DNA from: Geodermatophilus sp. YIM 151500
GTDB taxonomy: Bacteria > Actinomycetota > Actinomycetes > Mycobacteriales > Geodermatophilaceae
Assembly: GCF_025716945.1 (NCBI RefSeq)
Contig: NZ_JAOVZT010000005.1
Location: forward strand, 62,001-126,000
DNA: 64,000 nucleotides
Direction: 5' to 3'
Within the stretch, counting starts at the first letter, position 1, and each line of letters begins with the position of its first letter. A model generated the notes under the pieces. That model was not told the origin of the DNA and ran no database searches. It saw nothing but the letters and a program-made list of their open reading frames with translations. This document shows, piece by piece, positions 34,431 through 56,343 of this stretch. Made by a program: the position numbers and the translations under genes.

Positions 34431-34468
34431 TGTTGCGTCAGGCGCGACCCGCTGAGTAATGTGCAACA
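34431..34468. promoter_or_regulatory. Candidate IclR operator upstream of the Rieske oxygenase
   Basis: GTTGCG-TCAGG-CGCGAC at 34432-34448 matches the dyad at 33470 in half-site and 5-base spacer, with one mismatch. A further GCAACA (34463-34468) pairs with TGTTGC (34431-34436). The oxygenase start codon is about 115 bp downstream. Confidence 0.55.
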
Positions 34469-34581
34469 CATCGGTCGTCCTGAGTTCGGTGACGGACGAC
34501 GACCGTGGTCGACACAGACCTGCGTCGCCCGACTTCCGGCGCGTCCCTCCACACCGCCCGACGGAATCCCCGAGGTGTCGA

Positions 34582-35703
34582 ATGACCACCACCGACCTGC
34601 CCGCGAGCCTCATCTCCACGCTGCCGGGCCAGTACTACACGGACCCGGCCATCTTCGCGCTGGAGCAGTCCCACGTCTTCGAGAACATGTGGCTCTGCGC
34701 CGTGCGCTCGAGTGACCTTCCCACGCCCGGCTCCTTCAAGAAGGTCCAGGTCGGGCGGGAGAGCGTGCTCGTGGTCCGCAGCCGGGACGGGCAGCTGCGG
34801 TCGTTCCTCAACATCTGCCGGCACCGCGGTGCGCAGATCTGCACCGAGGACTCGGGAGCGGTCAAGCGGGCCTTCCAGTGCCCCTACCACGCCTGGACCT
34901 ACGACCTCGAGGGCAAGCTCGTCGCGGCCCCCAACCTGACCAAGATGCCCGACATCGACCGGGTCGAGTACGGCCTGGTGCCGGTGGCGCTGCGCGAATG
35001 GCTCGGCTACGCGTGGGTGTGCCTGGCGAAGGAGCCCCCGTCGTTCGAGGAGGACGTCGTGGGCGCCATCGTCGAGCGCCTCGGGGACGTGGACTCGATC
35101 GACCACTACGAGCTCGATGCGCTGTCCGTGGGGCGCCGCATCACCTACGACGTCAAGGCCAACTGGAAGCTCATCATCGAGAACTTCATGGAGTGCTACC
35201 ACTGCGCCACGATCCACCCGGAGCTCACCGAGGTGCTCCCCGAGTTCGCCGACGGGTACGCGGCGCAGTACTTCGTCGGGCACGGCGCGGAGTTCGGGGA
35301 CGACGTCAAGGGCTTCACCGTCGACGGCAGCGAGGGCTTCGACCGGCTCCCGGGCGTCGACGAGGACCACGACCGCCGCTACTACGCCATCACGGTCAGG
35401 CCGACCGTCTTCGTCAACCTGGTGCCCGACCACGTCATCTTCCACCGCATGTTCCCGGTCGCGGTCGACCGGACCATCGTGGAGTGCGACTGGCTCTACA
35501 CCCGCGAGGTCGTCGAGTCCGGCAAGGACGTGACGCGGTCGGTGGAGCTGTTCCACCGGGTGAACGAGCAGGACTTCGCCGCCTGCGAGCGGACCCAGCC
35601 GGCCATGTCCTCCCGCGCCTACGCCAACGGCGGCGTGCTCGTGCCCTCCGAGCACCACATCGGCGCCTTCCACGAGTGGCTGACGCAGCGCCTGACGAGC
35701 TGA
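34582..35703 (+). CDS. gbcA: Rieske oxygenase, probable glycine betaine monooxygenase large subunit
   Basis: A 373-residue oxygenase that would remove one methyl of glycine betaine, giving dimethylglycine and formaldehyde. Rieske ligands are C79-x-H81 (CRHRG) and C100-x2-H103 (CPYH). The mononuclear iron site includes H206 and H211 in FMECYHCATIHPEL, with a later Asp in NEQDFAACE. The length and ENFMECYHC motif match GbcA/stachydrine-demethylase-like enzymes. No GbcB-type reductase is present; the Rieske ferredoxin and reductase at 31958-33447 appear to serve it. ATG at 34582 has GAGGTG upstream. The substrate assignment rests on the neighbouring DMGO and sarcosine oxidase genes. Confidence 0.85.
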   Translation: MTTTDLPASLISTLPGQYYTDPAIFALEQSHVFENMWLCAVRSSDLPTPGSFKKVQVGRESVLVVRSRDGQLRSFLNICRHRGAQICTEDSGAVKRAFQCPYHAWTYDLEGKLVAAPNLTKMPDIDRVEYGLVPVALREWLGYAWVCLAKEPPSFEEDVVGAIVERLGDVDSIDHYELDALSVGRRITYDVKANWKLIIENFMECYHCATIHPELTEVLPEFADGYAAQYFVGHGAEFGDDVKGFTVDGSEGFDRLPGVDEDHDRRYYAITVRPTVFVNLVPDHVIFHRMFPVAVDRTIVECDWLYTREVVESGKDVTRSVELFHRVNEQDFAACERTQPAMSSRAYANGGVLVPSEHHIGAFHEWLTQRLTS

Positions 35704-35830: not shown

Positions 35831-36760
35831 CTACCTCGGCACTGCGTCGGACAGGCGAGCCAGCCATTCCTGCCGCCACGCCTCCGTCCGCGCCACCTCG
35901 TTGAACGTGAACAGGTGGAAGCCCTCCAGGTTGTGCTCGAACCGCCCCAGCGCGGGCGCCAGGCCCTGGACGAGACGATCCGGTCGGTAGCCGTGGGGCA
36001 GGAAGAAGCGCCAGACCATGCTGTGCTGCTTCAGCAGGAACCGGGCCGACTGACCGAGCCCGAGCCCCGCCGAGATGCGCACCAGCTTCTGGCGCGTCAC
36101 CGCGCCGGGGAGCCCGATCCGGATCGGGAGGTCGACGCCCCGCAGCTTGACCTGCCGCGCCCAGGCCGTCGTCGTCGCGGCGGAGAAGCACAGCTGCGTG
36201 ATGACGTGCGTGGCGTGCGGTGCCTTGCGCTCGAGGGCGCGTTCGATGTGCTCCGGGCTGATGTGCCCGTGCCCCTCGGGATAGCCGCCGATCCCCACCC
36301 GCCGGAACTGGTGGCCGACGACCTCCAGCGCTTCGAGCAGGCCGAGGGCGTCGGGGAACGTCCCCGCGGGCTCGACGGCGTCGCCCCCGATCACGAACAC
36401 GCTGTCCACGTCCGCGGCACGCAGGCGGGCGACGACGTCGGCCAGGTGCGATGCGTCCCGGACCAGCCGGGCGGCCAGGTGCGGCGTGGCGGTGAACCCG
36501 TGGCGGGACAACCGCTCGGCCAATTCGATGGTCGGCGTCAGGCCCTTGGCCTCGGTCACCGTCACGGTGAGCGGCACGGTCCGGGGGACGTGCTCGACGA
36601 TCGACTCCTCGGCGCCGCGCAGCGGCAGGACCTCGTAGCTCGCCTCGCGCAGCGCCGTTTCCAACCGTTCCCGTGGTCGACGCCGAGACGGCGGGCTGTC
36701 GGCCGAGCTCGCCGGGACCGGGCCGTCCGGTGCGGTGGCGACGCGTCCCTCAGCCGGCAT
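35831..36760 (-). CDS. Methylenetetrahydrofolate reductase-like protein
   Basis: A 309-residue TIM-barrel protein of the MTHFR family, which reduces 5,10-methylene-THF to 5-methyl-THF using FAD. Visible features are VPLTVTVTEAKGLTPTIELA, DVDSVFVIGGDAVEPAGTFP, RVGIGGYPEGHGHISPEHIE and ITQLCFSAATTTAW, matching the MetF barrel strands. It is the last gene of an operon with the MBL hydrolase (11-bp overlap) and the formaldehyde dehydrogenase. It may divert surplus methylene-THF to methyl-THF, or work in the reverse direction; the flavin and pyridine-nucleotide preferences are not visible. Confidence 0.8.
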   Translation of the reverse strand: MPAEGRVATAPDGPVPASSADSPPSRRRPRERLETALREASYEVLPLRGAEESIVEHVPRTVPLTVTVTEAKGLTPTIELAERLSRHGFTATPHLAARLVRDASHLADVVARLRAADVDSVFVIGGDAVEPAGTFPDALGLLEALEVVGHQFRRVGIGGYPEGHGHISPEHIERALERKAPHATHVITQLCFSAATTTAWARQVKLRGVDLPIRIGLPGAVTRQKLVRISAGLGLGQSARFLLKQHSMVWRFFLPHGYRPDRLVQGLAPALGRFEHNLEGFHLFTFNEVARTEAWRQEWLARLSDAVPR

Positions 36761-38629: not shown

Positions 38630-38665
38630 CCTCGGCTTTGGTTCATGACAGAAAGGGACTGCGGC

Positions 38666-39990
<1,325 letters not shown>

Positions 39991-39994
<4 letters not shown>

Positions 39995-41238
39995 GGCCTC
40001 GTTCCTCCACCCCCCGCACCCCCGGCGCGGACCTGCCGGAGCACCCGGACTTCCTGTGGCGGAACCCGGAGCCGAAGCGCTCGTACGACGTGGTGATCGT
40101 GGGCGGCGGCGGGCACGGCCTGGCCACCGCGCACTACCTGGCGAAGAACCACGGCATCACGAACGTCGCCGTCCTGGAGAAGGGCTGGCTGGCGGGCGGC
40201 AACATGGCCCGCAACACCACGATCATCCGGTCCAACTACCTGTGGGACGAGAGCTCGGCCATCTACGAGCACGCGCTGAAGCTGTGGGAGGGGCTCGAGG
40301 AGGACCTCGGCTACCCGATCCTGTTCAGCCAGCGCGGCGTGCTCAACCTCGCCCACTCCCTGCAGGACGTCCGCGACAGCGTGCGCCGGGTCGAGGCCAA
40401 CAAGCTCAACGGCGTCGACGCGGAGTGGCTGGAGCCGGACGAGGTCCGCAAGATCTGCCCGATCGTCAACACGTCGACCGACATCCGCTACCCGGTCCTG
40501 GGGGCGACGTACCAGCCCCGAGCCGGCATCGCCAAGCACGACTACGTGGCCTGGGGCTTCGCCCGCCGGGCCGACGAGGCCGGCATCGACCTCATCCAGG
40601 ACTGCGCGGTCACCGGGTTCGCCACCGACGGCAACCGGGTCACCGGGGTGCAGACCACCCGGGGCACCATCGGCGCCGGCAAGGTCGCCCTCTGCGCGGC
40701 CGGCCACACCTCCGTGCTCACCGATCTGCTCGGCATCCGCGTGCCGGTGCAGAGCCACCCGCTGCAGGCCCTGGTCTCCGAGCTGCTCGAGCCGGTGCAC
40801 CCGACGGTGGTCATGTCCAACGCCGTGCACGTCTACGTCTCCCAGGCGCACAAGGGCGAACTGGTCATGGGCGCCGGCGTCGACTCCTACAACGGCTACG
40901 GCCAGCGCGGTGCCTTCCACATCATCGAGCGCCAGATGGCCGCCGCCGTCGAGCTCTTCCCGGTGTTCGCCCGGGCGCACCTGCTGCGCACCTGGGCCGG
41001 CATCGTCGACGTCAGCCCCGACGCGTCACCGATCGTCGGGCGGACCCCCTACGACAACCTCTACCTCAACTGCGGCTGGGGCACCGGCGGGTTCAAGGCC
41101 ACCCCCGGCATCGGCTGGGCCCTGGCGCACACCATCGCCTCCGACGAGCCACATCCGTACGTGGCGCCGTTCAGCCTCGACCGCTTCGTCACCGGCGCGC
41201 TCGTCGACGAGCACGGCGCGGCCGCCGTGGCCCACTGA
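39991..41238 (+). CDS. soxB: Heterotetrameric sarcosine oxidase, beta subunit
   Basis: A 415-residue flavin subunit. The FAD motif is [19 protein letters not shown] near residue 32, and the FMN-linking His lies in the [12 protein letters not shown] segment. [20 protein letters not shown] at the C-terminus is characteristic. With subunits alpha, gamma and delta it oxidises sarcosine to glycine, giving H2O2 and, with THF, 5,10-methylene-THF. It is second in the operon, with a 4-bp overlap on glyA. Length matches the family (about 400). Confidence 0.9.
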
Positions 41239-41254: not shown

Positions 41255-41566
41255 GTGCAACTCATCGCATGCCCGTGGTGCGGCCCCCGCGAGGAGGTCG
41301 AGTTCCACTACGGCGGCCAGGCCCACGTCCCGTACCCGGACGACCCCGGCGGGCTCTCCGACGAGGAGTGGGCGCACTACGTCTTCTACCGCGACAACCC
41401 CAGGGGCCGCTTCGCCGAGCGCTGGAACCACAGCGCCGGCTGCCGCCGCTGGTTCAACGCGGTCCGCGACACCGCCACCTACCGCTTCGAGCGCGTCTAC
41501 CGCCTCGATGACCCGAAGCCGCTCGCGACCGAGCTCGCGACGTCACGGAGGAACACAGCCCGATGA
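41255..41566 (+). CDS. soxD: Sarcosine oxidase, delta subunit
   Basis: A 103-residue zinc-binding subunit. CPWCGPREEVEFHYGGQAH at residues 6-24 and NHSAGCRRWFN (near residue 60) hold the Cys/His ligands typical of SoxD. The GTG start at 41255 follows AGGGAG by about six bases. It overlaps soxA by 4 bp. It is structural and contributes to tetramer formation. Confidence 0.9.
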   Translation: MQLIACPWCGPREEVEFHYGGQAHVPYPDDPGGLSDEEWAHYVFYRDNPRGRFAERWNHSAGCRRWFNAVRDTATYRFERVYRLDDPKPLATELATSRRNTAR

Positions 41567-44425
41567 CGAGCCCGTTCCGCACGCCCCAGGGCGGCCGCGT
41601 CGACCGCGCCACCACCGTCGAGTTCACCTTCGACGGGCAGGCCTTCACCGGCCACCCCGGCGACACGCTGGCCTCCGCGCTGCTCGCCGCCGGCCGGCAC
41701 CAGATCGCCACGAGCATCTCGCTCGGCCGACCGCGCGGCATCGCCGCGGCCTGGGCCGAGGACCCCGGCGGCCTGGTGCAGGTCGAGGAGCCGTTCCCCG
41801 AGCCCATGCTGCTGGCCACCACCGTCGAGCTCGCCGACGGGCTGGTCGCCCACGGGCTGCCGGGGCAGGGCCGCCTCGCCGAGATCCCCGACTCCGCTCG
41901 CTACGACGCGGTCCACCACCACGTCGACGTGCTGGTCGTCGGGGCCGGGCCCGCCGGGCTGGCCGCCGCGCTGACCGCCGCCCGGGCCGGCGCCCGTGTC
42001 GCGCTCGTCGACGAGCAGTCCGAGGCCGGCGGCTCGCTGCTGGCGGGCACCGAGCGGCTCGACGACGCTCCGGCGCTGCAGTGGGTCGCCGCGGCGGTCG
42101 CCGAGCTGGCCGACCACCCGGAGGTGCTGCACCTGCAGCGCGCCACCGCGTTCGGCAGCTACGACGACGGCTTCGTCCTGGCGCTCGAGCGGCGTACCGA
42201 CCACCTCGGAGCGGCCGCACCCAGGCACCTGTCCCGCCAGCGGGTGTGGCGCTTCCGGGCCCGCTCGGTCGTCGTGGCGACCGGAGCCCACGAGCGCCCC
42301 GTCGTCTTCGCCGACAACGACCGCCCGGGCATCATGCTCGCCGGCGCCGCCCGCACGTTCCTGCACCGCTACGGCGTGCTGCCCGGTCGCGAGGCCGTCG
42401 TCTTCACCACGAATGACAGCGCCTACGACTCCGCCCTCGACCTGCACCGCGCGGGCGTGCGGGTGCAGGCGGTGGTCGACGCCCGGCCGGAGGGCTCGCC
42501 GCGCCGGCGCGAGGAGTGCGAGCGCGCGGGGATCCGGGTGCTCGCCGGGGCCGTCGTGACCGGCACCCGGGGCGTCGAGCGGGTCACCCACGCCCTGGTC
42601 GCCCCGTTCGCGGACGGCGAGGTCGGCGCCGGGAGCGCGATCGCCTGCGACGTGCTCCTGGTCAGCGGCGGCTGGAACCCCGCGGTGCACCTGTTCAGCC
42701 AGGCCCGCGGCCGGCTCCGCTACGACGCGGCACTCGGCGCATTCGTCCCCGGTGAGGAGCTCGACGGCCTGTCCGTCACCGGCTCGGCCGCCGGCGTCCC
42801 CGACCTGGCCGGATGCCTGGCCGACGGGCAGCGGGTGGCCCGCGCGGCACTGTCGGCACTGGCGATCGCGCCGGCCGCGGACGACCGCCTGCCGGCCGCC
42901 CCGGAACCCGTCGTCCCGTCCGCGCCCCTGGTGCTGTGGCGGGTGCCGGACACCTCCGGCGCCGAGGGCAGCACGTCGTTCGTCGACCTGCAGCGCGACG
43001 CGACGGTCGCCGACATCGCCCGCGCGGTCGGCGCCGGCCTGCGCTCCATCGAGCACGTGAAGCGCTACACGACGATCGGGACGGCCCACGACCAGGGCAA
43101 GACCTCCGGCGTCCTCACCTCCGGGATCACCGCCGAGCTGCTCGGCGTCCCGGTGCAGGACACCGGGACCACGACGTTCCGGCCGCCCTACACCCCGGTC
43201 GCCTTCGCCGCGCTGGCCGGCCGCGACCGCGGCCGGCTCTTCGACCCCGAGCGGGTCACCGCCCTGCACGACTGGCACGTCACGGCCGGGGCGGTCTTCG
43301 AGGACGTCGGCCAGTGGAAGCGTCCCCGCTACTACCCGCGGCCCGGCGAGGACATGGAGGCCGCCGTCCTCCGGGAGTGCGCCGCCGCGCGGACCGGCGT
43401 CGGGATCCTCGACGGCTCCACGCTCGGCAAGATCGACGTCCAGGGCCCCGACGCCGCCGTCCTCCTGGACCGGCTCTACACGAACCTGATGAGCAGCCTG
43501 AAGGTCGGCTCCGTCCGCTACGGCGTCATGTGCGGCGTCGACGGCATGGTCATCGACGACGGCACGGTGCTGCGCCTGGCCGAGGACCGCTTCCTCGTCC
43601 TCACCACCACCGGCGGCGCGGCGAAGATCCTCGACTGGATGGAGGAGTGGGCCCAGACCGAGTGGCCGGACCTGCGGGTCCACTGCACCTCGGTCACCGA
43701 GCAGTGGGTCACCTTCCCCGTCGTCGGTCCCCGCTCCCGGGACGTCGTCGGCGCGGTCTTCCCCCAGGTGGACGTCGCCAACGAGGCCTTCCCGTTCATG
43801 ACCTGGCGGGACACCACCCTCGACGGGGTGCCGGTCCGGCTGGCCCGGATCAGCTTCTCCGGCGAGCTCGCCTTCGAGGTCTACGTCAACCCGTGGTACG
43901 CGGTCGCGGTGTGGCAGCGGCTGCTCGAGGCCGGCCGCCCGTACGGCATCACGCCCTACGGCACGGAGACCATGCACGTCCTCCGCGCGGAGAAGGGCTA
44001 CCCGATCATCGGGCAGGACACCGACGGCACCGTCACCCCGCAGGACCTCGGCATGGGGTGGGCGGTCTCGAAGAAGAAGCCCGACTTCGTCGGCAAGCGC
44101 TCCTTCGCCCGCGTCGAGAACCAGAACCCGCTGCGCAAGCAGCTGGTCGGGCTGCTGCCCGTGGACCGGCGGACCGTGCTCCCGGAGGGCTCGCAGATCG
44201 TGGAGTTCCGCGCCGACGGGCAGCTGCCGCCCCCGCCGGTCCCGATGCTGGGCCACGTCACCTCCAGCTACCGCAGTGCCGCGCTCGCTCGCCCCTTCGC
44301 CCTCGCCCTGGTCAAGGGAGGCCGGTCGCGCATCGGCGACACCGTCCACGTCCCCGTCAACGGCACCCTCGTCCCGGTGGAGGTCACCGGCTCGGTGCTG
44401 GTCGATCCCGAAGGAGCCCGTCGCG

Positions 44426-44433
<8 letters not shown>
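41563..44433 (+). CDS. soxA: Sarcosine oxidase, alpha subunit
   Basis: A 956-residue subunit, about the usual length. An N-terminal ferredoxin-fold domain without cluster cysteines spans about residues 10-95 (GRPRGIAAAWAEDPGGLVQV). The FAD/NAD domain spans about 120-430, with VDVLVVGAGPAGLAAALTAA. A GcvT-like THF domain spans about 560-950 (VGILDGSTLGKIDVQG, YGTETMHVLRAEKGYPIIGQ, DLGMGWAVSKKKPDFVGKRS). The THF domain captures the methylene group and prevents formaldehyde release. It is coupled to soxD (4-bp overlap) and soxG (8-bp overlap). Confidence 0.9.
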
Positions 44434-47564
<3,131 letters not shown>

Positions 47565-47594: not shown

Positions 47595-48215
47595 ATGCGT
47601 TCCGACACCATCGAGACCTTCCTGGCGCAGCTCGCCGCCAGGGTGCCCGCCCCCGGAGGAGGGGCCACCGCCGCACTGCACGCGGCCCAGGCCGCGGCCC
47701 TGGTGGCGATGGTCGCCCGCTACAGCGACTCGGCGAAGTACGCCGACCACGCCGAGGAGATCGCCACCATCACGGTCACCGCCGACCGGCTGCGGCAGGA
47801 CGCACTGGGTCTGGCCGAGGAGGACGCCGCGGCCTTCACCGCGGTCACCGAGGCCTACGGGCTCCCGAAAGGAACACCGGACGACGCCGCGGCCCGGTCG
47901 GAGGCGATCGCGAAGGCGCTCGTCGGCGCGGCCTCCGTGCCGGCGGTCGTCGTCGCCGTCGCCGACGAGGTGCTGGGCCTGGCCGAGCGGATCCTGCCGA
48001 TCGGCAACCGCAACGTGATCAGCGACGTCGCCGCCGCCGCCGAGGCGGCCCGGGCTGCAGCGACGACGGCCCGGGTCAACGTGGAGGTCAACCTCGGTGG
48101 CATCACGGACCCGGCGACCTCGGGAGAGCTCGCTGCGGTCGCCGGCACCGTGGACGACCTCGTCCTGCGGGCGGAGAAGGTCACCGCCGCCGTCCGGGAC
48201 GGGTTGGTCCGATGA
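47595..48215 (+). CDS. fchA: Methenyl-THF cyclohydrolase / cyclodeaminase-family protein
   Basis: A 206-residue helical protein of the FTCD_C/FchA family. Signatures are ARVPAPGGGATAALHAAQAA near residue 14, SVPAVVVAVADEVLGLAERI, and NRNVISDVAAAAEAARAA. In anaerobes and methylotrophs FchA opens 5,10-methenyl-THF to 10-formyl-THF. It is translationally coupled (4-bp overlap) to a FolD whose cyclohydrolase lysine is missing, so it probably supplies that activity here. It follows the dimethylglycine oxidase by 30 bp. Confidence 0.85.
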   Translation: MRSDTIETFLAQLAARVPAPGGGATAALHAAQAAALVAMVARYSDSAKYADHAEEIATITVTADRLRQDALGLAEEDAAAFTAVTEAYGLPKGTPDDAAARSEAIAKALVGAASVPAVVVAVADEVLGLAERILPIGNRNVISDVAAAAEAARAAATTARVNVEVNLGGITDPATSGELAAVAGTVDDLVLRAEKVTAAVRDGLVR

Positions 48216-49051
48216 CCGCGACGTTGGGCGGGACCGAGCTGGCCGCCGGCATCCGCGGCGAGGTCGCCACCGCGGCCGCGGAGCTGGCCGCCGCGGGGAC
48301 GCCGCCCGGGCTGGCCGTGGTCGTCGCGACGGCGGACGAGTCCAGCGCCTGGTACGTCCGCTCCATCGCCCGGGCCGCGGAGAGGACCGGCATCGCCTGC
48401 TCGGTCGTCGACCTCGGGGAGACGGCGACGCCGGACGAGATCCGGGTCGAGCTGGCCGCGCTCAGCGGGGATCCCGCCGTGCACGGCATCATCCTGCAGA
48501 CCCCGCTGCCGGCCGACGCCGTCGTCGAGGACCTCGCCGCGTCGATCGACCCGGCCAAGGACGTCGACGGCGCCAACCCGCTCAGCCTGGGACGTCTCGC
48601 CGCGGGCCTACCCGCCTTCGCGCCGGCGACCGCCGAGGCCGTGCTGGCTCTCCTGGACCACCACGGGATCCCGCTGTCCGGCGCGCACGCGGTCGTGGTC
48701 GGGCGGTCCACCGTCGTCGGCAAGCCCGCGGCGCACCTGCTGCTGCAGCGGGACGCAACCGTGACCGTCTGCCACAGCCGCACCAAGGAGCTGGCCGAGG
48801 TGACCCGGTCCGCGGACGTGCTCGTCGCGGCCGTCGGGCGGCCGGAGCTCCTCACGGCCGAGCACGTCGCGGAGGACGCCGTGGTCATCGACGTCGGCAC
48901 CAACCCGACACCCGACGGCGGACTGGTCGGGGACGTCGACGCCGGGTCGGTCACCGGACGGGCGGCCGGGCTGACCCCGGTACCGGGCGGGGTCGGCCCG
49001 GTCACCACCGCGCTCCTCCTGCGGCACACGGTCGCCTCCGCGCGCGGCTGA
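48212..49051 (+). CDS. folD: Methylene-THF dehydrogenase (FolD-like, cyclohydrolase lysine missing)
   Basis: A 279-residue FolD-fold enzyme. Family blocks are [47 protein letters not shown] for NADP, and [19 protein letters not shown]. The Y-V-x-x-K motif, whose Lys is required for cyclohydrolase activity, reads Y48-V-R-S-I52. PxTP, normally after the DVDG block, reads APATAEA. It should therefore only oxidise methylene-THF to methenyl-THF. FchA, coupled upstream, can do the next step. Together they deliver 10-formyl-THF to PurU. It is shorter in some loops but otherwise complete. Confidence 0.88.
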
Positions 49052-49059
49052 GCACGACC

Positions 49060-49926
49060 GTGGTGGACGTCGCGCACCGTCCCCCCGGGGGCGCCCGCAC
49101 CTCGACGCAGCCCCTCGGCCGGGCGCTCGCGGGGAGGCGGCCGCTGGTCTGCGGCATCCTCAACGTCACCCCCGACTCCTTCTCCGACGGGGGGCGCTTC
49201 GACGGCGTCGACCGGGCCGCGGAGCGCGGATGCGCCCTGGCCGGCGAGGGCGCCGACCTCGTCGACATCGGCGGGGAGTCGACGCGACCCGGCTCGCGCC
49301 CGCCGACCCTCGCCGAGGAACTGGACCGCGTCGTCCCGGTCGTCGAGGCCCTGGTCCGGCGGGTCGCCGTGCCGCTGTCCGTGGACACCTCGCGGCCCGA
49401 GGTCATGCGGGCGGCCGTGGCGGCCGGGGCGAGCATGATCAACGACGTGCGGGCGCTGCGGTCGCCGGGCGCTCTGGAGGCCGCCGCGGAGCTGGGGGTG
49501 CCGGTGTGCCTCGTGCACATGCAGCGCTCGCCGGAGAGCATGCAGCGGGATCCCCGCTACCAGGACGTCGTCGCCGAGGTGCGAGCCTTCCTCGCCGAGC
49601 GGACGCGTGCCTGCCTCGACGCCGGCATCCCGCCGGAGCACCTGGTGGTGGACCCCGGGTTCGGGTTCGGGAAGACGCTGTCCCACAACGTCGCGCTGCT
49701 GGCGTCCCTCGATGCGCTCACCGGCCTGGGCGTCCCGGTCATGGTGGGGCTGTCCCGCAAGTCGATGCTCGGGCAGCTCACCGGGCGGGCCGCAGGAGAC
49801 CGGCTGCCCGGGTCGCTGGCCGCGGCCGTCATCGCCGCCCAACGAGGTGCCGCCGTGCTGCGCGTGCACGACGTCGCCGCCACGCGGGACGCCCTGGCGG
49901 TGCTGGACGCCGTCGGCCCGGTGTGA
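49060..49926 (+). CDS. folP: Dihydropteroate synthase
   Basis: A 288-residue TIM-barrel enzyme that joins the pterin pyrophosphate and p-aminobenzoate. Signatures: [48 protein letters not shown] and [11 protein letters not shown], with GLSRKSM near the end. All are intact, so it should be active. The GTG at 49060 lies 8 bp after folD. It is last in the catabolic operon and joins folC and pabBC at 53084-56343 as a dedicated folate supply. The chromosome almost certainly has another folP in its folE-folK cluster, but that is an assumption. Confidence 0.88.
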
Positions 49927-49970: not shown

Positions 49971-50033
49971 CGGCCACCCTTCAGGGTCCCGCGGCGAGCC
50001 TGTGAGGCGTGGGGGAAGGGTGGTCCTCTTTCA
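49971..50033. repeat. Intergenic structured repeat, copy C (inverted)
   Basis: On the minus strand it reads GAAAGAGGAC, then stem CACCCTT, core CTCACAGGCTCG, and closing stem AAGGGTG. On the plus strand CCACCCTT (49974-49981) pairs perfectly with AAGGGTGG (50016-50023). It lies between the convergent folP and gntR genes and may end both transcripts. Confidence 0.6.
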
Positions 50034-50756
50034 GATCACCGCGCGGATCGCCCGCTCGAAGCCCAGGACGTGCTCACGGGCGAGGTCGTCGGCACGATCC
50101 GCGTCGCCCGTGGCGATCGCGCGGAGCAGCTCGACGTGCTCCCCGACGTGCTCGTCCACCATGGGCAGCCGGTCGAGGAACAGGCAGAAGATCCGCGTCG
50201 CCAGGTTGTCGTAACGGATCAGGACGTCCTCGAGGTGCGGGTTGCCGGCCGCCCGGTAGATGGCACGGTGCACGGCGAGGTCCCAGCGCATCAGCTCGGT
50301 CCGGTCGATGCGGGCGATGTCGAGCTGCTGGATCCGCGAGGCCAACTCCTCGAGCTCGGCGTGCGCCGCGCGGACGGCTCGCTCGGCGGCCCGGCGGGCT
50401 GCCAACGGCTCGAGCTGCGCGCGGATCTCGGAGATGTGCGCCAGATCGGAGATGTCCATACCGGTCGCGAACGTCCCACGCCGCGGGTAGGAGATCACGA
50501 GCCGGTCGCCCTCCAGGCGTTTCAGCGCTTCGCGGACCGGGGTGCGGCCCACGCCGAGGTCCGTGGCCAGCGCGTCGTCGTCGATCGGATCGCCCGGACG
50601 GATGTCGAGCATGATCAGCCGGTCCCGGATCGCCACGTAGGCCCGGTCCGCCAGGGACGCGGCGGCAGACGAGTCGAGATCCAAGGGGGCGACGGTCACC
50701 GTCGCATCGTAAGGGCTGAAGGCCACCAAGGCTTGCCTCCATGTGGGTATCGACAT
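50031..50756 (-). CDS. GntR-family (FadR-type) regulator of the one-carbon regulon
   Basis: About 241 residues. The winged HTH includes [35 protein letters not shown] and [11 protein letters not shown]. The C-terminal FCD domain has the His/Asp ligands in [16 protein letters not shown] and [11 protein letters not shown], which in this family bind a metal and an acid effector. I place the start at the ATG at 50756, six bases after TACAGT and next to the operator; a GTG at 50699, six bases after TACGAT, is a credible alternative. The shared palindrome at its own promoter, sdaA and glyA makes it the likely controller of the pathway. Confidence 0.85.
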
Positions 50757-50831: not shown

Positions 50832-52205
50832 ATGACCATCAGCGCCTTCGACCTGTTCAAGGTCGGGATCGGCCCGTCGAGTTCGCACACGGTCGGCCCC
50901 ATGCGCGCGGCCTGCACCTTCGTGTCCCGGCTCCGGGACCGGGGCCTGCTGGGGAGGGTCGCCGGGGTGCGCTGCGAGCTGTTCGGGTCGCTCGGGGCGA
51001 CCGGGCACGGGCACGGCAGCGTCAAGGCGGTCGTCCTCGGTCTCGAAGGGGAGCAACCGGACCTGGTCGACCCGGTCGCGGCCGAGCCCCGCGTCGACGC
51101 CGTCCGTCGCGAGGGCAAGCTGGCCCTGGCCGGTGAGCACCCCATCGCGTTCTCGGTGGACGACGACGTCGTGCTGCACCGGCGCAAACGGCTGGAGTTC
51201 CACAGCAACGGCATGCTCTTCCGGGCGCTGGACGCGGACGGCGGCGAGGTCGACCGGCGCGAGTACTACTCGGTGGGCGGCGGATTCGTCCTCGACGAGG
51301 ACGACGCGGGCAACCCGGCCATCGTCGAGGACCCCACGCCCGTCCGGTACCCGTTCCGCACCGGCGAGGAGCTGCTGTCCCGGACGCGTGGGACGGGGCT
51401 GCGGATCAGCGACGTGATGCTGGCCAACGAGCTCGCCTGGCGCAGCGAGACGGAGGTCCGCGACGGACTGCTGCACATCTGGTCGGTGATGCAGGAGTGC
51501 GTGGAGCGCGGCACCCGGACCACCGGCGTGCTGCCCGGCGGGCTCAGGGTCCGCCGGCGCGCGGCTGCTCTGCGCGCCCAGCTCGAGGAGCACCCGGACG
51601 AGGCCGACCCGCTCCGCGCGATGGAGTGGGTGACCCTCTACGCCCTGGCGGTCAACGAGGAGAACGCGGCCGGCGGCCGGGTGGTCACCGCGCCGACGAA
51701 CGGCGCCGCAGGCATCGTGCCGGCGGTCCTGCACTACTACCGGGAATTCGTCGACTCCTTCTCCGAGGACGGCGTGGTGCGCTTCCTGCTCACGGCTGCG
51801 GCGGTCGGGCTGCTCTTCAAGGAGAACGCCTCCATCTCGGGCGCGGAGGTGGGCTGCCAGGGCGAGGTCGGCTCGGCCTGCTCCATGGCCGCGGCCGGCC
51901 TCGCCGAGGTCATCGGGGGAACTCCGGAGCAGGTGGAGAACGCCGCCGAGATCGGCATCGAGCACAACCTCGGCCTCACCTGCGACCCGGTCGGCGGGCT
52001 CGTGCAGATCCCCTGCATCGAGCGCAACGCCGTCGGTTCGGTCAAGGCCATCACCGCGGCCCGCATGGCCGTGCGCGGCGACGGCCGGCACCACGTCCCG
52101 CTGGACAAGGCCATCAAGACGATGCGCGAGACCGGCGCGGACATGAAGGACAAGTACAAGGAGACCGCCCGCGGCGGGCTGGCCCTCAACATCGTCGAGT
52201 GCTGA
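50832..52205 (+). CDS. sdaA: L-serine ammonia-lyase, iron-sulfur type
   Basis: A 457-residue single-chain serine dehydratase making pyruvate and ammonia. The beta domain is at the N-terminus ([20 protein letters not shown]), and the alpha domain carries the [4Fe-4S] Cys residues in [17 protein letters not shown] and [24 protein letters not shown] is part of the active site. The protein ends NIVEC; a C-terminal Cys occupies the cluster in some family members. ATG at 50832 has GGAGAGG. It heads an operon with purU, folC and pabBC, and with glyA it turns glycine carbon into pyruvate. Confidence 0.9.
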
Positions 52206-52215
52206 GGAGGCACCC

Positions 52216-53064
52216 GTGTCCCACCCGTTCACCCTCACGCTGAGCTGCCCCGAGCGTCCGGGCATCGTGCGCGCGGTGAGCTCGTTCCTGTTCGAGCACG
52301 GCTGCGACATCGTCGAGCACCAGCAGTTCGACGACGCCGTCCGCGGGCAGCTGTTCCTGCGCACCGAGTTCGTCTGCGCCGAGGACACCGACGCCGACCG
52401 GCTGTCGGCGGACTTCCGGGCGGTGGCCGACGAGTTCGGCATGCTCTACCGGATGACCGGTGACCAGCCGCAACGCGTGCTCGTCATGGTGTCCAAGCTC
52501 GGTCACTGCCTCAACGACCTGGTCTTCCGCTGGCGCGCCGGCAGCCTCGGCGCGGAGCTCGTCGCCGTGGTGTCCAACCACGAGGACCTGCGCCCGATGG
52601 CGGAGGCGGCCGGCCTCCCGTTCGTCCACGTCCCCGTGACGCCGGCGACCAAGCGCGAGGCCGAGACGCGGCTGCTCGAGCTGGTCGACGAGTACCGGGC
52701 CGACCTGGTCGTCCTGGCCCGCTACATGCAGATCCTCTCCGACGAGACGTGCGCGGCGCTGCACGGCCGGGCGATCAACATCCACCACTCCTTCCTGCCG
52801 GGGTTCAAGGGCGCCAAGCCCTACCACCAGGCCTTCGACCGCGGCGTGAAGCTGGTCGGGGCGACCGCCCACTACGTGACCCCCGACCTGGACGAGGGGC
52901 CGATCATCGAGCAGGAGGTCATCCGCATCGACCACACCTTCGATCCGCGCGCGCTGGCCACCGTCGGACAGGACGCCGAGGCGCTCGCGCTGTCGCGCGC
53001 CGTCCGGTGGCACAGCGAGCGACGGGTGCTGCTCAACGGCCACAGCACGGTCGTCTTCCGGTGA
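52216..53064 (+). CDS. purU: Formyltetrahydrofolate deformylase
   Basis: A 282-residue enzyme that hydrolyses 10-formyl-THF to formate and THF. The N-terminal ACT domain spans about residues 5-80 (LTLSCPERPGIVRAVSSFLF), and the formyltransferase-like catalytic domain has Asn and His in INIHHSFLPGFKGAKPY and Asp in VTPDLDEGPII. It recycles THF when large amounts of one-carbon units arise from DMG and sarcosine. The GTG at 52216 lies 10 bp after sdaA, with GAGGAGG upstream. No formate dehydrogenase is visible in the window. Confidence 0.9.
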   Translation: MSHPFTLTLSCPERPGIVRAVSSFLFEHGCDIVEHQQFDDAVRGQLFLRTEFVCAEDTDADRLSADFRAVADEFGMLYRMTGDQPQRVLVMVSKLGHCLNDLVFRWRAGSLGAELVAVVSNHEDLRPMAEAAGLPFVHVPVTPATKREAETRLLELVDEYRADLVVLARYMQILSDETCAALHGRAINIHHSFLPGFKGAKPYHQAFDRGVKLVGATAHYVTPDLDEGPIIEQEVIRIDHTFDPRALATVGQDAEALALSRAVRWHSERRVLLNGHSTVVFR

Positions 53065-53083: not shown

Positions 53084-54460
53084 ATGACGACCGGGACGGC
53101 GGGCCTGCCGGCGCCCGTCGGCGCAGCCTCGTCCCGGGCCGCGCTCGACCGCGTCCGCCGGTACCTGTACGAGGAACTCGGCCCGCAGCGGGGGCCGGCG
53201 GGCGCGGGGCTCGCGCGCGCCCGTGCCCTGTTCGGGGCGCTGGGGGATCCGCAGGACCGGTTCCGCGCCGTGCACGTCGCCGGGACCGCCGGCAAGGGCT
53301 CTGTGAGCACCGTCGTCGCGAGCCTGCTCCGTGCGCACGGGTTCCGGGTCGGCGCCCACGTGTCGCCGCACGCCTACTGCCTCCTCGAGCGTTTCCAGGT
53401 CGACGGCGCTCCCGTGAGGGCCGACCTCGTCGACGCCGAGCTGGCCCGGATCCGGCCGGCCGTCGAGGCGGTGGAGCGAGCCGGGCACGGGCGGCCGTCC
53501 TTCTTCGAGGTGACCAACGCCCTCGCCTTCGGCCTGTTCGCCGACCGGGTGGACCACGGCGTGATCGAGACGGGGGTCGGCGGGCTGCTCGACTCCACGA
53601 ACACGATCACCCGCGCGGACAAGCTCGCGGTGATCACGCCGATCGGCCTGGACCACCAGGACCTCCTCGGGGCCACGGTGCGGGAGATCGCGGCCCAGAA
53701 GGCCGGCATCCTGCCGTGCGGCGGTCGGGCGGTCGCGGCTCGCCCGCGGAGCGCCGAGGTCGAGGACGTGCTGAGCGCGGAGGCGGCCCGCCGCAGCTGC
53801 GATCTCCGGTGGGTGGACCTGGATCCCCCGGCGGTGCGGTCCTGGTCCGGGCCTTCCGGCACCGAGCTGCAACTGCGGGGCCAGCCACCCCTGTCCCTGG
53901 GGCTGACCGGCCGGCACCAGGCCGGCAACGCCCACCTCGCGCTGCGTGCCGTCGAGGCGATCGCTGCGCGGGACGGGTGGTCCCTCGACGCGGACGCCGT
54001 CTGGCTGGGGATGCGGAGCGCCACGCTGCCCGGTCGGTTCGAACGCCGTGCGATCGCCGGCCGGCCCGCGGTCCTCGACGGCGCGCACAACCCGATGAAG
54101 CTCGCCGCGCTGGTGGCGACGCTGCGGGAGGTGCACCCCGGCGTCCGGTTCCCGTGGGTCCTCGCGTTCAGGCAGGACAAGGACCTGGAGGGAGCCCTGC
54201 ACGTCGTCGCGCCGGTGGCCTCCCTGGTGGTCGCGACGGAGTTCCGCGCCGACGGCGGCGACCACCCCGCCGGCGCCTCCGTCCCGGCCGAGCTCGTCGC
54301 CGCCGCGGCGGCGCACCGGGGCATCCCGACGGCGGTGGAGAGGGACCCGGTGCGTGCGGTGGGCCGTGCCGGAGAGCAGGCGGACGAGGCGGTGCCGGTC
54401 GTGGTGAGCGGCTCGTTCCACCTGCTCGCCGCCGTCCACGGCGCCACGGTGCCGGGGTGA
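53084..54460 (+). CDS. folC: Dihydrofolate synthase / folylpolyglutamate synthase
   Basis: A 458-residue Mur-ligase-family enzyme that adds glutamate to dihydropteroate and folates. P-loop: HVAGTAGKGSVSTVVASLL near residue 66. Other motifs: AHVSPHAYCLLERFQVDG, IETGVGGLLDSTN, ITPIGLDHQDLLG, AAQKAGIL and LDGAHNPMK. All are in place. It starts 19 bp after purU and overlaps pabBC by 4 bp. Polyglutamylation would hold folate in the cell and channel it to the folate-dependent oxidases. Confidence 0.88.
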   Translation: MTTGTAGLPAPVGAASSRAALDRVRRYLYEELGPQRGPAGAGLARARALFGALGDPQDRFRAVHVAGTAGKGSVSTVVASLLRAHGFRVGAHVSPHAYCLLERFQVDGAPVRADLVDAELARIRPAVEAVERAGHGRPSFFEVTNALAFGLFADRVDHGVIETGVGGLLDSTNTITRADKLAVITPIGLDHQDLLGATVREIAAQKAGILPCGGRAVAARPRSAEVEDVLSAEAARRSCDLRWVDLDPPAVRSWSGPSGTELQLRGQPPLSLGLTGRHQAGNAHLALRAVEAIAARDGWSLDADAVWLGMRSATLPGRFERRAIAGRPAVLDGAHNPMKLAALVATLREVHPGVRFPWVLAFRQDKDLEGALHVVAPVASLVVATEFRADGGDHPAGASVPAELVAAAAAHRGIPTAVERDPVRAVGRAGEQADEAVPVVVSGSFHLLAAVHGATVPG

Positions 54461-56343
54461 CCCGCACCGTGGCGTCGGCCGGCGGAGGGGCGCGGTTCGA
54501 CGACCTCCGCGCCGGAACGGCGGTCCGCTGTCCCGCTCCCGACCGCATCCTGGTGGCCGAGCGCGCCGACGAGGTCGCCGGCGTGCTCGCCGAGGTCGAG
54601 CGGGCCACGGAGTCCGGTCGGTGGGCGTTCGGGTACGTCGCCTACGAGGCCGCCGCCGGGCTGGATCCGCACCTCGCGGTGCACCCATCCCCGCCCCTCG
54701 GCATGCCGCTGGCCTGGTTCGGGATCTGCGACGAGCCGGTTCCGGTGCCGCCGCTGCACGCGCCCGGCCCGGCCGACGCCGGTCCGGCCGCGGCCGCGCG
54801 CTGGCACCCCACGTGGACGGCGGCCGGACATGCTGACGACGTCGCCCGGATCCGGGAGCGGATCGCCGCCGGGGACACCTTCCAGTGCAACCTGACCGTG
54901 CGGATGGCCGGACGCGTGGTGGGGGACCCCTTCCTCCTGTACCGGGATCTGGCGCTGGGGCAGCGTGGGGCCTACAACGCCTACCTCGACCTCGGTCGCT
55001 TCGCCGTGGCCAGCGCCAGCCCCGAGCTGTTCTTCGAGCGCCGCGGCGACCAGGTGCTGCTTCGCCCCATGAAGGGGACGGCGCGGCGAGGACGGGACCG
55101 GGACGAGGACCGGCGCCGGGCCGACGAGCTGCGCTCCAGCCCCAAGGAGCGCGCGGAGAACGTGATGATCGTGGACCTGATGCGCAACGACGTCGCCCGC
55201 GTCGCGGAGGTCGGCAGCGTCGACGTGCCCGCGCTCTTCACGGTCGAGAGCTACGAGACCGTGCTCCAGATGACCTCCGACGTCACGGCCCGGCTGCGCC
55301 CGGGCACCGGCCTGGTGGACCTGTTCCAGGCGCTGTTCCCCTGCGGTTCGGTCACGGGAGCGCCCAAGGCGAGCTCCATGGGGATCATCCGGTCGCTGGA
55401 GGCCGACCCGCGCGGCGTCTACTGCGGAGCCATCGGTCTGGTCGGCCCACCGGACGCGCCGGTCCGCGCCCGGTTCAACGTGGCCATCCGGACCGCCGTG
55501 GTGGACACGTCGTCGGGGGAGGCCGTGTACGGCACCGGCAGCGGGATCACCTGGGGGTCGGCGGCGCCCGCCGAGCACGCGGAGGTCCTCGCCAAGGCGG
55601 CCGTCCTGGCCGCCCGGCCCCGTGCGTTCGAGCTGCTGGAGACGATGCGTCATGACCCGCGGAGCGGTCTGCACAACCGGGACCGGCACCTGCAGCGTCT
55701 CGCGGCCTCGGCCGAGCACCTGGGCTTTCCGTTCGACCCGTCAGCGGCGCGGCGCGTGCTGGCGGTGCGGCTGGCGGGGGAGCCGGCGGCCCGCGTGCGG
55801 GTCCGGCTGCGCCGCGACGGGACGCTCGCCGTCGACGTCGAGGCGCTGCCCGCGGTGTCGGCCGGCCCGGTGCTGCTCGCCCTGGACGACGATCCGGTCG
55901 ACCCCGGGGAGAGCTGGCTGTACCACAAGACGAGCAGGCGGGAGCCGTACGACCGGCGCCGCGACCGGCGACCCGACGTCGACGACGTGATCATGCTGAA
56001 CGACCGGGGCGAACTGACCGAGACCACCCGGGCCACCCTGGCGCTGGAGCTGGACGGGCGGTGGTGGACGCCGCCGGTCGGTTCGGGGTGCCTCCCCGGG
56101 GTGGAACGGGCACGCCTGGTGGACCTGGGGGTGCTCCGCGAGCGGGTGCTCCGGCGGGACGACCTGCACCGGGCGACGGGGCTGGCGGTCATCAGCTCGC
56201 TGCGCGGATGGCGCGAGGGGAGGCTGCGCGAGGAGGCCCCCGTCTCCGTCGCGGGGACGCGCCCGGACCCGGCGCCGGCGGGCGGGCTCGACGACCTGAG
56301 CCCGAGCTCCAGGTGGGTGTCGATGACCAGTCCGGTCCCGTAG
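54457..56343 (+). CDS. pabB: PabB-PabC fusion: aminodeoxychorismate synthase I and lyase
   Basis: A 628-residue fusion. The N-terminal part, about residues 1-390, is chorismate-binding: FQCNLTVRMAGR, LLRPMKGTARRG, MIVDLMRNDVARVAEVGSV, FPCGSVTGAPK and GSGITWGSAAPAEHAEV. The C-terminal third is a class IV aminotransferase (ELLETMRHDPRSGLHNRDRH) with PLP Lys in LYHKTSRREPYD and MLNDRGELTETTRATLAL. It makes p-aminobenzoate, given a PabA glutaminase, which is not in this window. GTG overlaps folC by 4 bp. It is last in the sdaA operon. Confidence 0.85.
   Translation: MTRTVASAGGGARFDDLRAGTAVRCPAPDRILVAERADEVAGVLAEVERATESGRWAFGYVAYEAAAGLDPHLAVHPSPPLGMPLAWFGICDEPVPVPPLHAPGPADAGPAAAARWHPTWTAAGHADDVARIRERIAAGDTFQCNLTVRMAGRVVGDPFLLYRDLALGQRGAYNAYLDLGRFAVASASPELFFERRGDQVLLRPMKGTARRGRDRDEDRRRADELRSSPKERAENVMIVDLMRNDVARVAEVGSVDVPALFTVESYETVLQMTSDVTARLRPGTGLVDLFQALFPCGSVTGAPKASSMGIIRSLEADPRGVYCGAIGLVGPPDAPVRARFNVAIRTAVVDTSSGEAVYGTGSGITWGSAAPAEHAEVLAKAAVLAARPRAFELLETMRHDPRSGLHNRDRHLQRLAASAEHLGFPFDPSAARRVLAVRLAGEPAARVRVRLRRDGTLAVDVEALPAVSAGPVLLALDDDPVDPGESWLYHKTSRREPYDRRRDRRPDVDDVIMLNDRGELTETTRATLALELDGRWWTPPVGSGCLPGVERARLVDLGVLRERVLRRDDLHRATGLAVISSLRGWREGRLREEAPVSVAGTRPDPAPAGGLDDLSPSSRWVSMTSPVP

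Follow-up and report, generated by a model that had tools for sequence, protein, structure and literature searches.

What does a FolD do once the lysine of its cyclohydrolase is gone, and does the gene coupled to it make good the loss? The question is raised by a locus in the 64,000-nucleotide stretch of Geodermatophilus sp. YIM 151500 analyzed here (NZ_JAOVZT010000005.1, positions 62,001 to 126,000; hereafter the window), which belongs to contig C49 of a 4.77-Mb genome. There, fchA, coding for a putative methenyl-tetrahydrofolate (methenyl-THF) cyclohydrolase, overlaps a gene for a paralogue of FolD, an enzyme that normally combines methylene-THF dehydrogenase and cyclohydrolase. On sequence comparison, we consider it very probable that this FolD is a monofunctional dehydrogenase that forms, together with FchA, the one-carbon (C1) branch of an N-demethylation gene cluster. 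The elements concerned are as follows.

47595..48215, plus strand: fchA, methenyl-THF cyclohydrolase-like protein of the FTCD_C family, 206 aa (PF04961, solved relative 7vg4, conserved residues)
48212..48215, plus strand: ATGA overlap of the fchA stop and the folD start (from the sequence)
48212..49051, plus strand: folD paralogue with Ile52 in place of the cyclohydrolase Lys, predicted to be a monofunctional methylene-THF dehydrogenase, 279 aa (PF02882, alignment, motif, clade)

The FolD paralogue and its FchA partner

The window FolD matched PF02882 (THF_DHG_CYH_C) with 196.7 bits against a cut-off of 27. Its residues 48 to 54 read YVRSIAR, and because four phmmer alignments with solved FolDs ran without a gap across YxxxK, Ile52 is placed at the position of the cyclohydrolase Lys. 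The original prediction had read YVRSI for YVxxK, an altered PxTP, and a 4-bp overlap of fchA with folD. All three readings were confirmed, the first by these alignments, the second as a change of PCTPxG to PATAEA (PCTP to PATA), in which Cys139, Pro141, and Gly143 are all replaced by Ala, and the third as ATGA between two open frames. Lys was present in 49/49 canonical FolD rows, and position 52 held Ile in 22 and Leu in 6 of the 28 rows of the window FolD's clade. A sequencing error or a lone mutation as the source of Ile52 was ruled out because the loss of Lys is common to the whole clade. Of the FolDs in named loci, that of Geodermatophilus sabuli was nearest, at 94% identity.

The active-site Gln and Asp are present (Gln96 and Asp119), Tyr48 and the nucleotide-binding GRSxxVGxP are retained as well, and the protein also carries PVPGGVGPV. 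At position 232 (window 48905-48907), Arg was found in 42/49 canonical rows and Pro in the window FolD. This Arg was gone from 108/109 Lys-less rows (28/28 actinobacterial, 50/50 Chloroflexota, and 30/31 clostridial) and also from two alphaproteobacterial FolDs that retain Lys; Arg232 may belong to the cyclohydrolase site. The window FolD has Ser in CHSRT, a position with Ser in 25/28 and Arg in 3/28 actinobacterial rows. By a weak analogy to human MTHFD1, with Ser197 as the mark of NADP+, and MTHFD2, with Arg233 (PMC9173628), this Ser suggests NADP+ as the cofactor. No curated NCBIfam FolD model passed its threshold among the 25 models listed of 30 (highest score 278, cut-off 421), in a comparison made without a control FolD scan.

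Published variants bear on these residues. In Escherichia coli FolD, K54N left ~19% of the dehydrogenase activity with undetectable cyclohydrolase activity, Q98H left ~8% and ~1%, respectively, and the Lys also binds carolacton (PMC5688156). In human MTHFD1, the Lys helps to bind methylene-THF, and K56E raised the KM more than 6 times (PMC9173628). The window FolD resembles E. coli FolD and the MTHFD1 DC domain in fold family, cofactor motifs, Tyr, Gln, and Asp but differs from them in the change of Lys to Ile and in the altered PCTPxG and Arg232. A monofunctional dehydrogenase of the FolD family is on record in yeast MTD1 (from a title cited in PMC6443876); like the enzyme predicted here, MTD1 (1edz) is a FolD relative with one activity, although its match to the window FolD was weak (E 0.0023).

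The window FchA matched PF04961 (FTCD_C) with 171 bits against a cut-off of 24.5 and is the sole FTCD_C match in the genome. It retains P20, G22, G23, D77, D144, and N166, which are invariant across 110 aligned FolD-linked FchA rows. The FTCD_C family includes cyclodeaminases, and with NF045657, the NCBIfam model of FchA, the protein scored 138 bits, under the cut-off of 275, which counts against our assignment. It could be supposed on these grounds that FchA is a formimino-THF cyclodeaminase of histidine or purine breakdown, functionally unrelated to its neighbor, and that the FolD is a decaying paralogue. We regard this as very unlikely. Among solved structures, the window FchA was closest to 7vg4, a methenyltetrahydrofolate cyclohydrolase, at 2e-30, against ~1e-16 for cyclodeaminases; the gene order fchA to folD is common to Actinobacteria, Clostridia, and Chloroflexota, with fchA upstream in 115/119 linked cases; and the actinobacterial Lys-less clade retains most canonical FolD positions and provides the sole FolD of 15 genomes described below.

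Distribution and descent of Lys-less FolDs

FchA and FolD were both searched for in 200 genomes of the window's order, FolD at E <= 1e-60. FchA was found in 34/200 and a window-type FolD (at least 288 bits) in 25/200. FchA was also present in 24 of these 25, and the remaining genome (G033) is 74% complete. A scan of named genomes gave 80 loci, among which the 11 of window type were all Lys-less and all accompanied by fchA, and the other 69 retained Lys and Gln and had no fchA in the stretch. Beyond these, FTCD_C was matched in 103/291 genomes of Clostridia, the class of the Caldicoprobacter genome G200 (115 matches; 70 loci read, 31 with a FolD), in 217/301 genomes of Chloroflexota (50 of the 70 loci read had a FolD next to FTCD_C), and in 3/190 alphaproteobacterial genomes (two over the cut-off, both read). 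Lys was missing from 30/31 clostridial (one unreadable), 50/50 Chloroflexota, and 0/2 alphaproteobacterial fchA-adjacent FolDs. The two alphaproteobacterial FolDs (L210 and L211) have Lys, with Glu or Asp for the catalytic Gln. Gln loss together with the absence of Arg232 may offer a second way of losing the cyclohydrolase; these rows lie on a long branch, and no conclusion was drawn from them.

The combined tally comprised 234 unique FolDs, counted as linked when fchA was no more than 1 kb away on the same strand. Among 119 linked FolDs, 115 were Lys-less, 2 had Lys without Gln, and 2 were unreadable, one of which (G127) was later read as having Leu at the Lys position. Lys and Gln occurred together in 0/117 readable linked FolDs. 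By contrast, 111 of the 115 FolDs without a nearby fchA retained both residues, and 4 were Lys-less. For two of these four (L154 and L156), fchA lies at another site of the same genome (G060 and G021), so that a Lys-less FolD and FchA share a genome even when unlinked. The third (L202) comes from the incomplete G033, and the fourth (L372:7995-8876) lies on Paenarthrobacter sp. YJN-5 plasmid pYJN5-2 and is annotated as bifunctional; the 16.8 kb of plasmid read contained no fchA. Searches of plasmids by tblastn with FchA overlooked the FchA of L376, which phmmer found, and tblastn negatives are therefore weak.

FolD trees were built with the motif columns removed. The actinobacterial Lys-less FolDs formed one clade (98, starred; 28 rows) and the clostridial FolDs another (99, starred; 31 rows). 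When Chloroflexota were added, the actinobacterial clade grouped with 13/14 Chloroflexota rows (97/97, starred). The long rows L350 and L380 were unsure in placement or shifted between trees. As judged from these sequences, the window FolD is a member of a Lys-less, FchA-partnered subfamily held in common with Chloroflexota.

Several observations weigh against so simple a picture. The approximately unbiased (AU) test did not reject a single origin of all Lys-less FolDs (p 0.177 with 36 rows, 0.48 with 53 rows). Only two independent pairs differing in fchA linkage lie on starred branches (three on the best tree); Lys tracks fchA in one of the two and does not differ in the other, which is too few for significance. 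Many independent losses of Lys are therefore unsupported, and because clades and independent pairs are few, the association of fchA with Lys loss describes a subfamily and is not a test of many events. The four Lys-less FolDs without a nearby fchA belong here as well, and since many loci span 3.6 kb, the absence of a nearby fchA there holds for ~1.5 kb on each side. Furthermore, 10/34 FchA genomes of the order have no window-type FolD. In four of them (G016, G106, G120, and G194), a FolD with Lys lies ~1.9 kb from fchA, one (G127) has a divergent Lys-less FolD, three (G114, G011, and G134) showed no FolD in the stretch read, and in two (G068 and G131) the FchA match had an E near 1e-3 and the loci were left out of the reading. 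In the loci of the first four (L381-L384, from G016, G120, G194, and G106, respectively), all from the window's family and fetched after the tally, hence outside the 234, a folD with Lys and Gln is followed by pabBC and then by fchA at a distance of 1849-1888 bp. FchA can thus be recruited without loss of Lys. Finally, because the MTHFD1 Lys aids substrate binding, loss of Lys alone would weaken the dehydrogenase unless compensated. A strict rule that fchA always accompanies Lys loss was ruled out by L381-L384 and the two alphaproteobacterial FolDs.

Some of these loci have features of their own. The L381-L384 clusters also hold an MTHFR-like gene, and three of the four have a folP match. In L380:1736-9661 (G127), the FolD is very divergent and Lys-less (YERRL, VLRPLP), follows syringate/vanillate O-demethylase-like and MTHFR-like genes, and lies 910 bp from fchA, with an extradiol dioxygenase near; this locus is perhaps a C1 branch for aromatic O-demethylation. 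L387 (G134, 82% complete) has soxB, soxD, and soxA matches and a weak FchA match (41 bits) ~5 kb on, with no FolD in 13.3 kb. In Chloroflexota loci L286, L301, L306, L311, L319, L320, and L332-L337, FTCD_C lies in frames of ~515-585 aa with no FolD in the stretch, and these frames are perhaps fusions with formiminotransferase.

Genomes with a single, Lys-less FolD

PF02882 was searched in 64 genome entries, two of which (G119 and G207) have identical match coordinates and probably represent a single genome. In 15/25 order genomes with a window-type FolD, this Lys-less protein was the only match over the cut-off (G076, G069, G055, G090, G097, G169, G168, G070, G060, G119, G008, G105, G014, G157, and G021); 4 of the 15 have a further match under the cut-off. 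These genomes are 96-100% complete, FchA was present in 15/15, and a formate-THF ligase match was found in 0/15. 10-Formyl-THF is required for purine synthesis. FchA is therefore the only cyclohydrolase candidate in these genomes among the families searched, provided that neither spontaneous hydrolysis nor the Lys-less FolD is sufficient. In some other actinobacteria, then, the searches found no route to 10-formyl-THF besides this pair.

The second of these possibilities amounts to a different account of the pair, in which the Lys-less FolD retains useful cyclohydrolase activity through Gln96, Asp119, and water, and FchA adds capacity for high catabolic flux. Gln is indeed retained in 27/28 actinobacterial and 44/50 Chloroflexota Lys-less rows and Asp in 28/28 and 48/50, respectively, and L381-L384 combine FchA with a Lys-bearing FolD. 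However, the cyclohydrolase activity of the E. coli K54N variant was undetectable (PMC5688156), FchA occurs in all 15 genomes that have a Lys-less FolD alone and no ligase match, and in 31/31 clostridial rows Gln is lost too, being replaced by Phe or Leu. We consider this account unlikely and favor the division of the two activities between FolD and FchA.

Such a division has precedents. Methylobacterium uses a separate dehydrogenase, MtdA, and an FchA-type cyclohydrolase, Fch; the split is like that in the window, but MtdA belongs to another family and the window dehydrogenase is a FolD. In Clostridium perfringens, FolD is reportedly monofunctional and FchA is said to supply the cyclohydrolase. 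The C. perfringens pair resembles ours in joining an FchA-type cyclohydrolase to a FolD, and our clostridial sample was Lys-less in 30/31 cases, the C. perfringens sequence itself lying outside the sample reading. The window FolD shares with the clostridial kind the adjacent fchA and the missing Lys. By contrast, the clostridial FolDs of the sample also lack Gln and are the sole FolD over the cut-off in genomes that all (31/31) have formate-THF ligase, whereas the window FolD keeps Gln, falls in another clade in the trees, a single origin being compatible with the AU test, and is a paralogue. The use of a separate FchA by some microorganisms is noted in PMC7219735, where Aluri et al. (2016) is cited on C. 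perfringens; fchA and folD are described in a syntrophic acetate oxidizer (PMC3584212), and an FchA-MtdA enzyme of C. formicaceticum is mentioned (PMC12844395). No account of Lys loss in FchA-linked FolDs was found in the literature searched, which does not prove that none is published. Within that literature, the FolD/FchA split appears to be of a kind reported from Clostridium, and what appears new is its branch in Actinobacteria and Chloroflexota and the role of that branch in N-demethylation.

The probable N-demethylation cluster and its C1 branch

The genome of the window has a second, canonical FolD with YVSAK, VQLPLP, and PCTP (contig C22, L001:1135-2004). The window FolD is therefore a paralogue, and the organism has not replaced its bifunctional-type FolD. 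Around the fchA-folD pair, the following genes were identified, their functions being those of the families as given by curated models.

34459..35703, plus strand: Rieske oxygenase of N-demethylase type, GbcA-like (NF058607 225 bits, under the cut-off of 670; relatives 3vca, 4qup, 6y8j)
35831..36760, minus strand: MTHFR-like protein beside the Rieske oxygenase (PF02219 30 bits)
38645..39994, plus strand: glyA, serine hydroxymethyltransferase (NF000586 594.5 bits)
39991..41238, plus strand: soxB, sarcosine oxidase beta (TIGR01373 626 bits)
41255..41566, plus strand: presumably soxD, sarcosine oxidase delta, start inferred (named by its CPWCG motif and position; counterparts in L038 and L039)
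41563..44433, plus strand: soxA, sarcosine oxidase alpha (TIGR01372 1224 bits)
44426..45004, plus strand: soxG, sarcosine oxidase gamma (TIGR01375 103 bits, under the cut-off of 144)
45096..47564, plus strand: dmg, N,N-dimethylglycine oxidase with FAD and folate-binding GcvT domains (1pj5 1312 bits over the full length; DAO, GCV_T)
49060..49926, plus strand: folP paralogue, dihydropteroate synthase (TIGR01496 317 bits; the genome has four Pterin_bind matches, this one included)
50031..50756, minus strand: GntR/FCD regulator between the cluster halves (PF00392, PF07729)
50832..52205, plus strand: sdaA, L-serine ammonia-lyase (TIGR00720 685 bits)
52216..53064, plus strand: purU, formyl-THF deformylase (TIGR00655 323 bits)
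53084..54460, plus strand: folC, folylpolyglutamate synthase (TIGR01499 265 bits)
54457..56343, plus strand: pabB-pabC fusion, 4-aminobenzoate synthesis, start inferred (PF00425, PF01063)

A gene for mycothiol-dependent formaldehyde dehydrogenase lies further upstream of glyA-sox-dmg, and a promoter/terminator scan found nothing. With the Rieske, dmg, sox, glyA, and sdaA genes, the window has the genes of a route by which a methylated glycine could become glycine, serine, and pyruvate, and the same cluster holds the genes of the C1 branch from methylene-THF to formate. The Rieske oxygenase is a possible first step of the demethylation, its substrate being assigned by inference. Relatives of the MTHFR-like protein adjoin folD in other clusters of the window's family.

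The pathway that we propose would run as follows. The cluster would degrade methylated glycine, probably derived from glycine betaine, by stepwise N-demethylation. Dimethylglycine oxidase and heterotetrameric sarcosine oxidase would put the methyl carbon on THF to give methylene-THF, which is the established chemistry of these families. The FolD paralogue would oxidize methylene-THF to methenyl-THF with NADP+ or NAD+ and, because Ile stands in place of Lys, would presumably not hydrolyze methenyl-THF. FchA would convert methenyl-THF to 10-formyl-THF, from which PurU, by its family function, would free formate and THF. The housekeeping FolD elsewhere in the genome would serve biosynthesis. The folP, folC, and pabBC genes of the cluster are probably a dedicated THF supply, enlarging the THF pool during demethylation and catabolism. 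From sequence, then, we infer that only the dehydrogenase resides in the FolD, that the cyclohydrolase resides in FchA, and that the pair works in the oxidative direction.

The direction deserves comment, as both steps are reversible and the pair could also run from 10-formyl-THF to methylene-THF, with the FolD as a reductase, as in the Wood-Ljungdahl pathway. Formate-THF ligase is present in all 31 clostridial pair genomes, each with one FolD over the cut-off, and also in four actinobacterial pair genomes (G027, G184, G046, and G508), three with sox/dmg clusters and a fourth with dmg. However, the ligase was not found in the genome of the window, nor in the 15 sole-FolD actinobacterial genomes, and the window cluster holds two methylene-THF-producing oxidases together with PurU. 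We give the reductive direction hardly any credence and retain oxidation toward formate. The original prediction further supposed that the split itself pushes methylene-THF flow towards formate. This was unsupported: the dehydrogenase and cyclohydrolase steps are reversible and PurU is irreversible, so PurU would set the direction, and PurU also occurs with an ordinary FolD in a Paracoccus locus.

Related clusters place the window in context. A glyA-soxBDAG-purU operon is described in Corynebacterium and Colwellia (PMC3691474). These operons, and the soxBDAG-folD-purU locus of Paracoccus yeei, likewise combine sarcosine oxidase with glyA and/or PurU, leading from methylene-THF to formate. In the P. 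yeei locus, the stretch read lacks fchA and the FolD has Lys, whereas the window adds dmg, fchA, the Lys-less folD, and the genes of THF synthesis. The pair occurs with dmg and purU or with sox in 11 loci (the window, L038, L039, L352, L353, L354, L356, L357, L358, L360, and L376), L360 and L376 being of the dmg and purU type. In answer to the question whether other sox/dmg loci with fchA lack the Lys, it was missing in 11/11 loci read, the window included, that hold both fchA and folD; in the twelfth, L387, the stretch contained no FolD. The PF02882 search covered the genomes of all 11 loci but L039 and L376, and two or more FolDs exceeded the cut-off in every one of the nine. Three loci from another phylum served as controls, a purU-folD locus of Rhizobium etli and two soxBDAG-folD loci of Paracoccus; the stretch held no fchA in any of them, and Lys and Gln were retained (3/3). 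By this comparison, the predicted split of dehydrogenase and cyclohydrolase is likely, but the canonical FolD is still in the genome and the organism keeps the usual enzyme alongside it.

A tie of Lys loss to sox/dmg operons was ruled out by the 15/26 actinobacterial fchA-folD loci (read over at least 9 kb) that stand among unrelated genes, without other sox, dmg, or purU genes, in sole-FolD and some two-FolD genomes. One of these 15 loci (L367) has a PabBC-like match.

On balance, we favor the wider view that a Lys-less FolD with FchA is, across Chloroflexota, Clostridia, and many aerobic Actinobacteria, a widespread and old alternative to the bifunctional enzyme, serving as the sole route to 10-formyl-THF in part of the Actinobacteria and recruited as a copy for catabolic N-demethylation in others, including the Geodermatophilus of the window. 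If this is true, the annotation of Lys-less FolDs as bifunctional, seen for one of them (L372), would be wrong. These enzymes would also be insensitive to carolacton, since the E. coli Lys binds this compound. The Lys of YxxxK, together with Arg232 and the presence of fchA, would provide a sequence mark for telling one-step from two-step FolDs. Where a Lys-less FolD is the sole FolD and formate-THF ligase is missing, fchA is predicted to be essential for purine synthesis. In the window, the demethylation operon would have its own C1-oxidation branch, separate from the housekeeping FolD.

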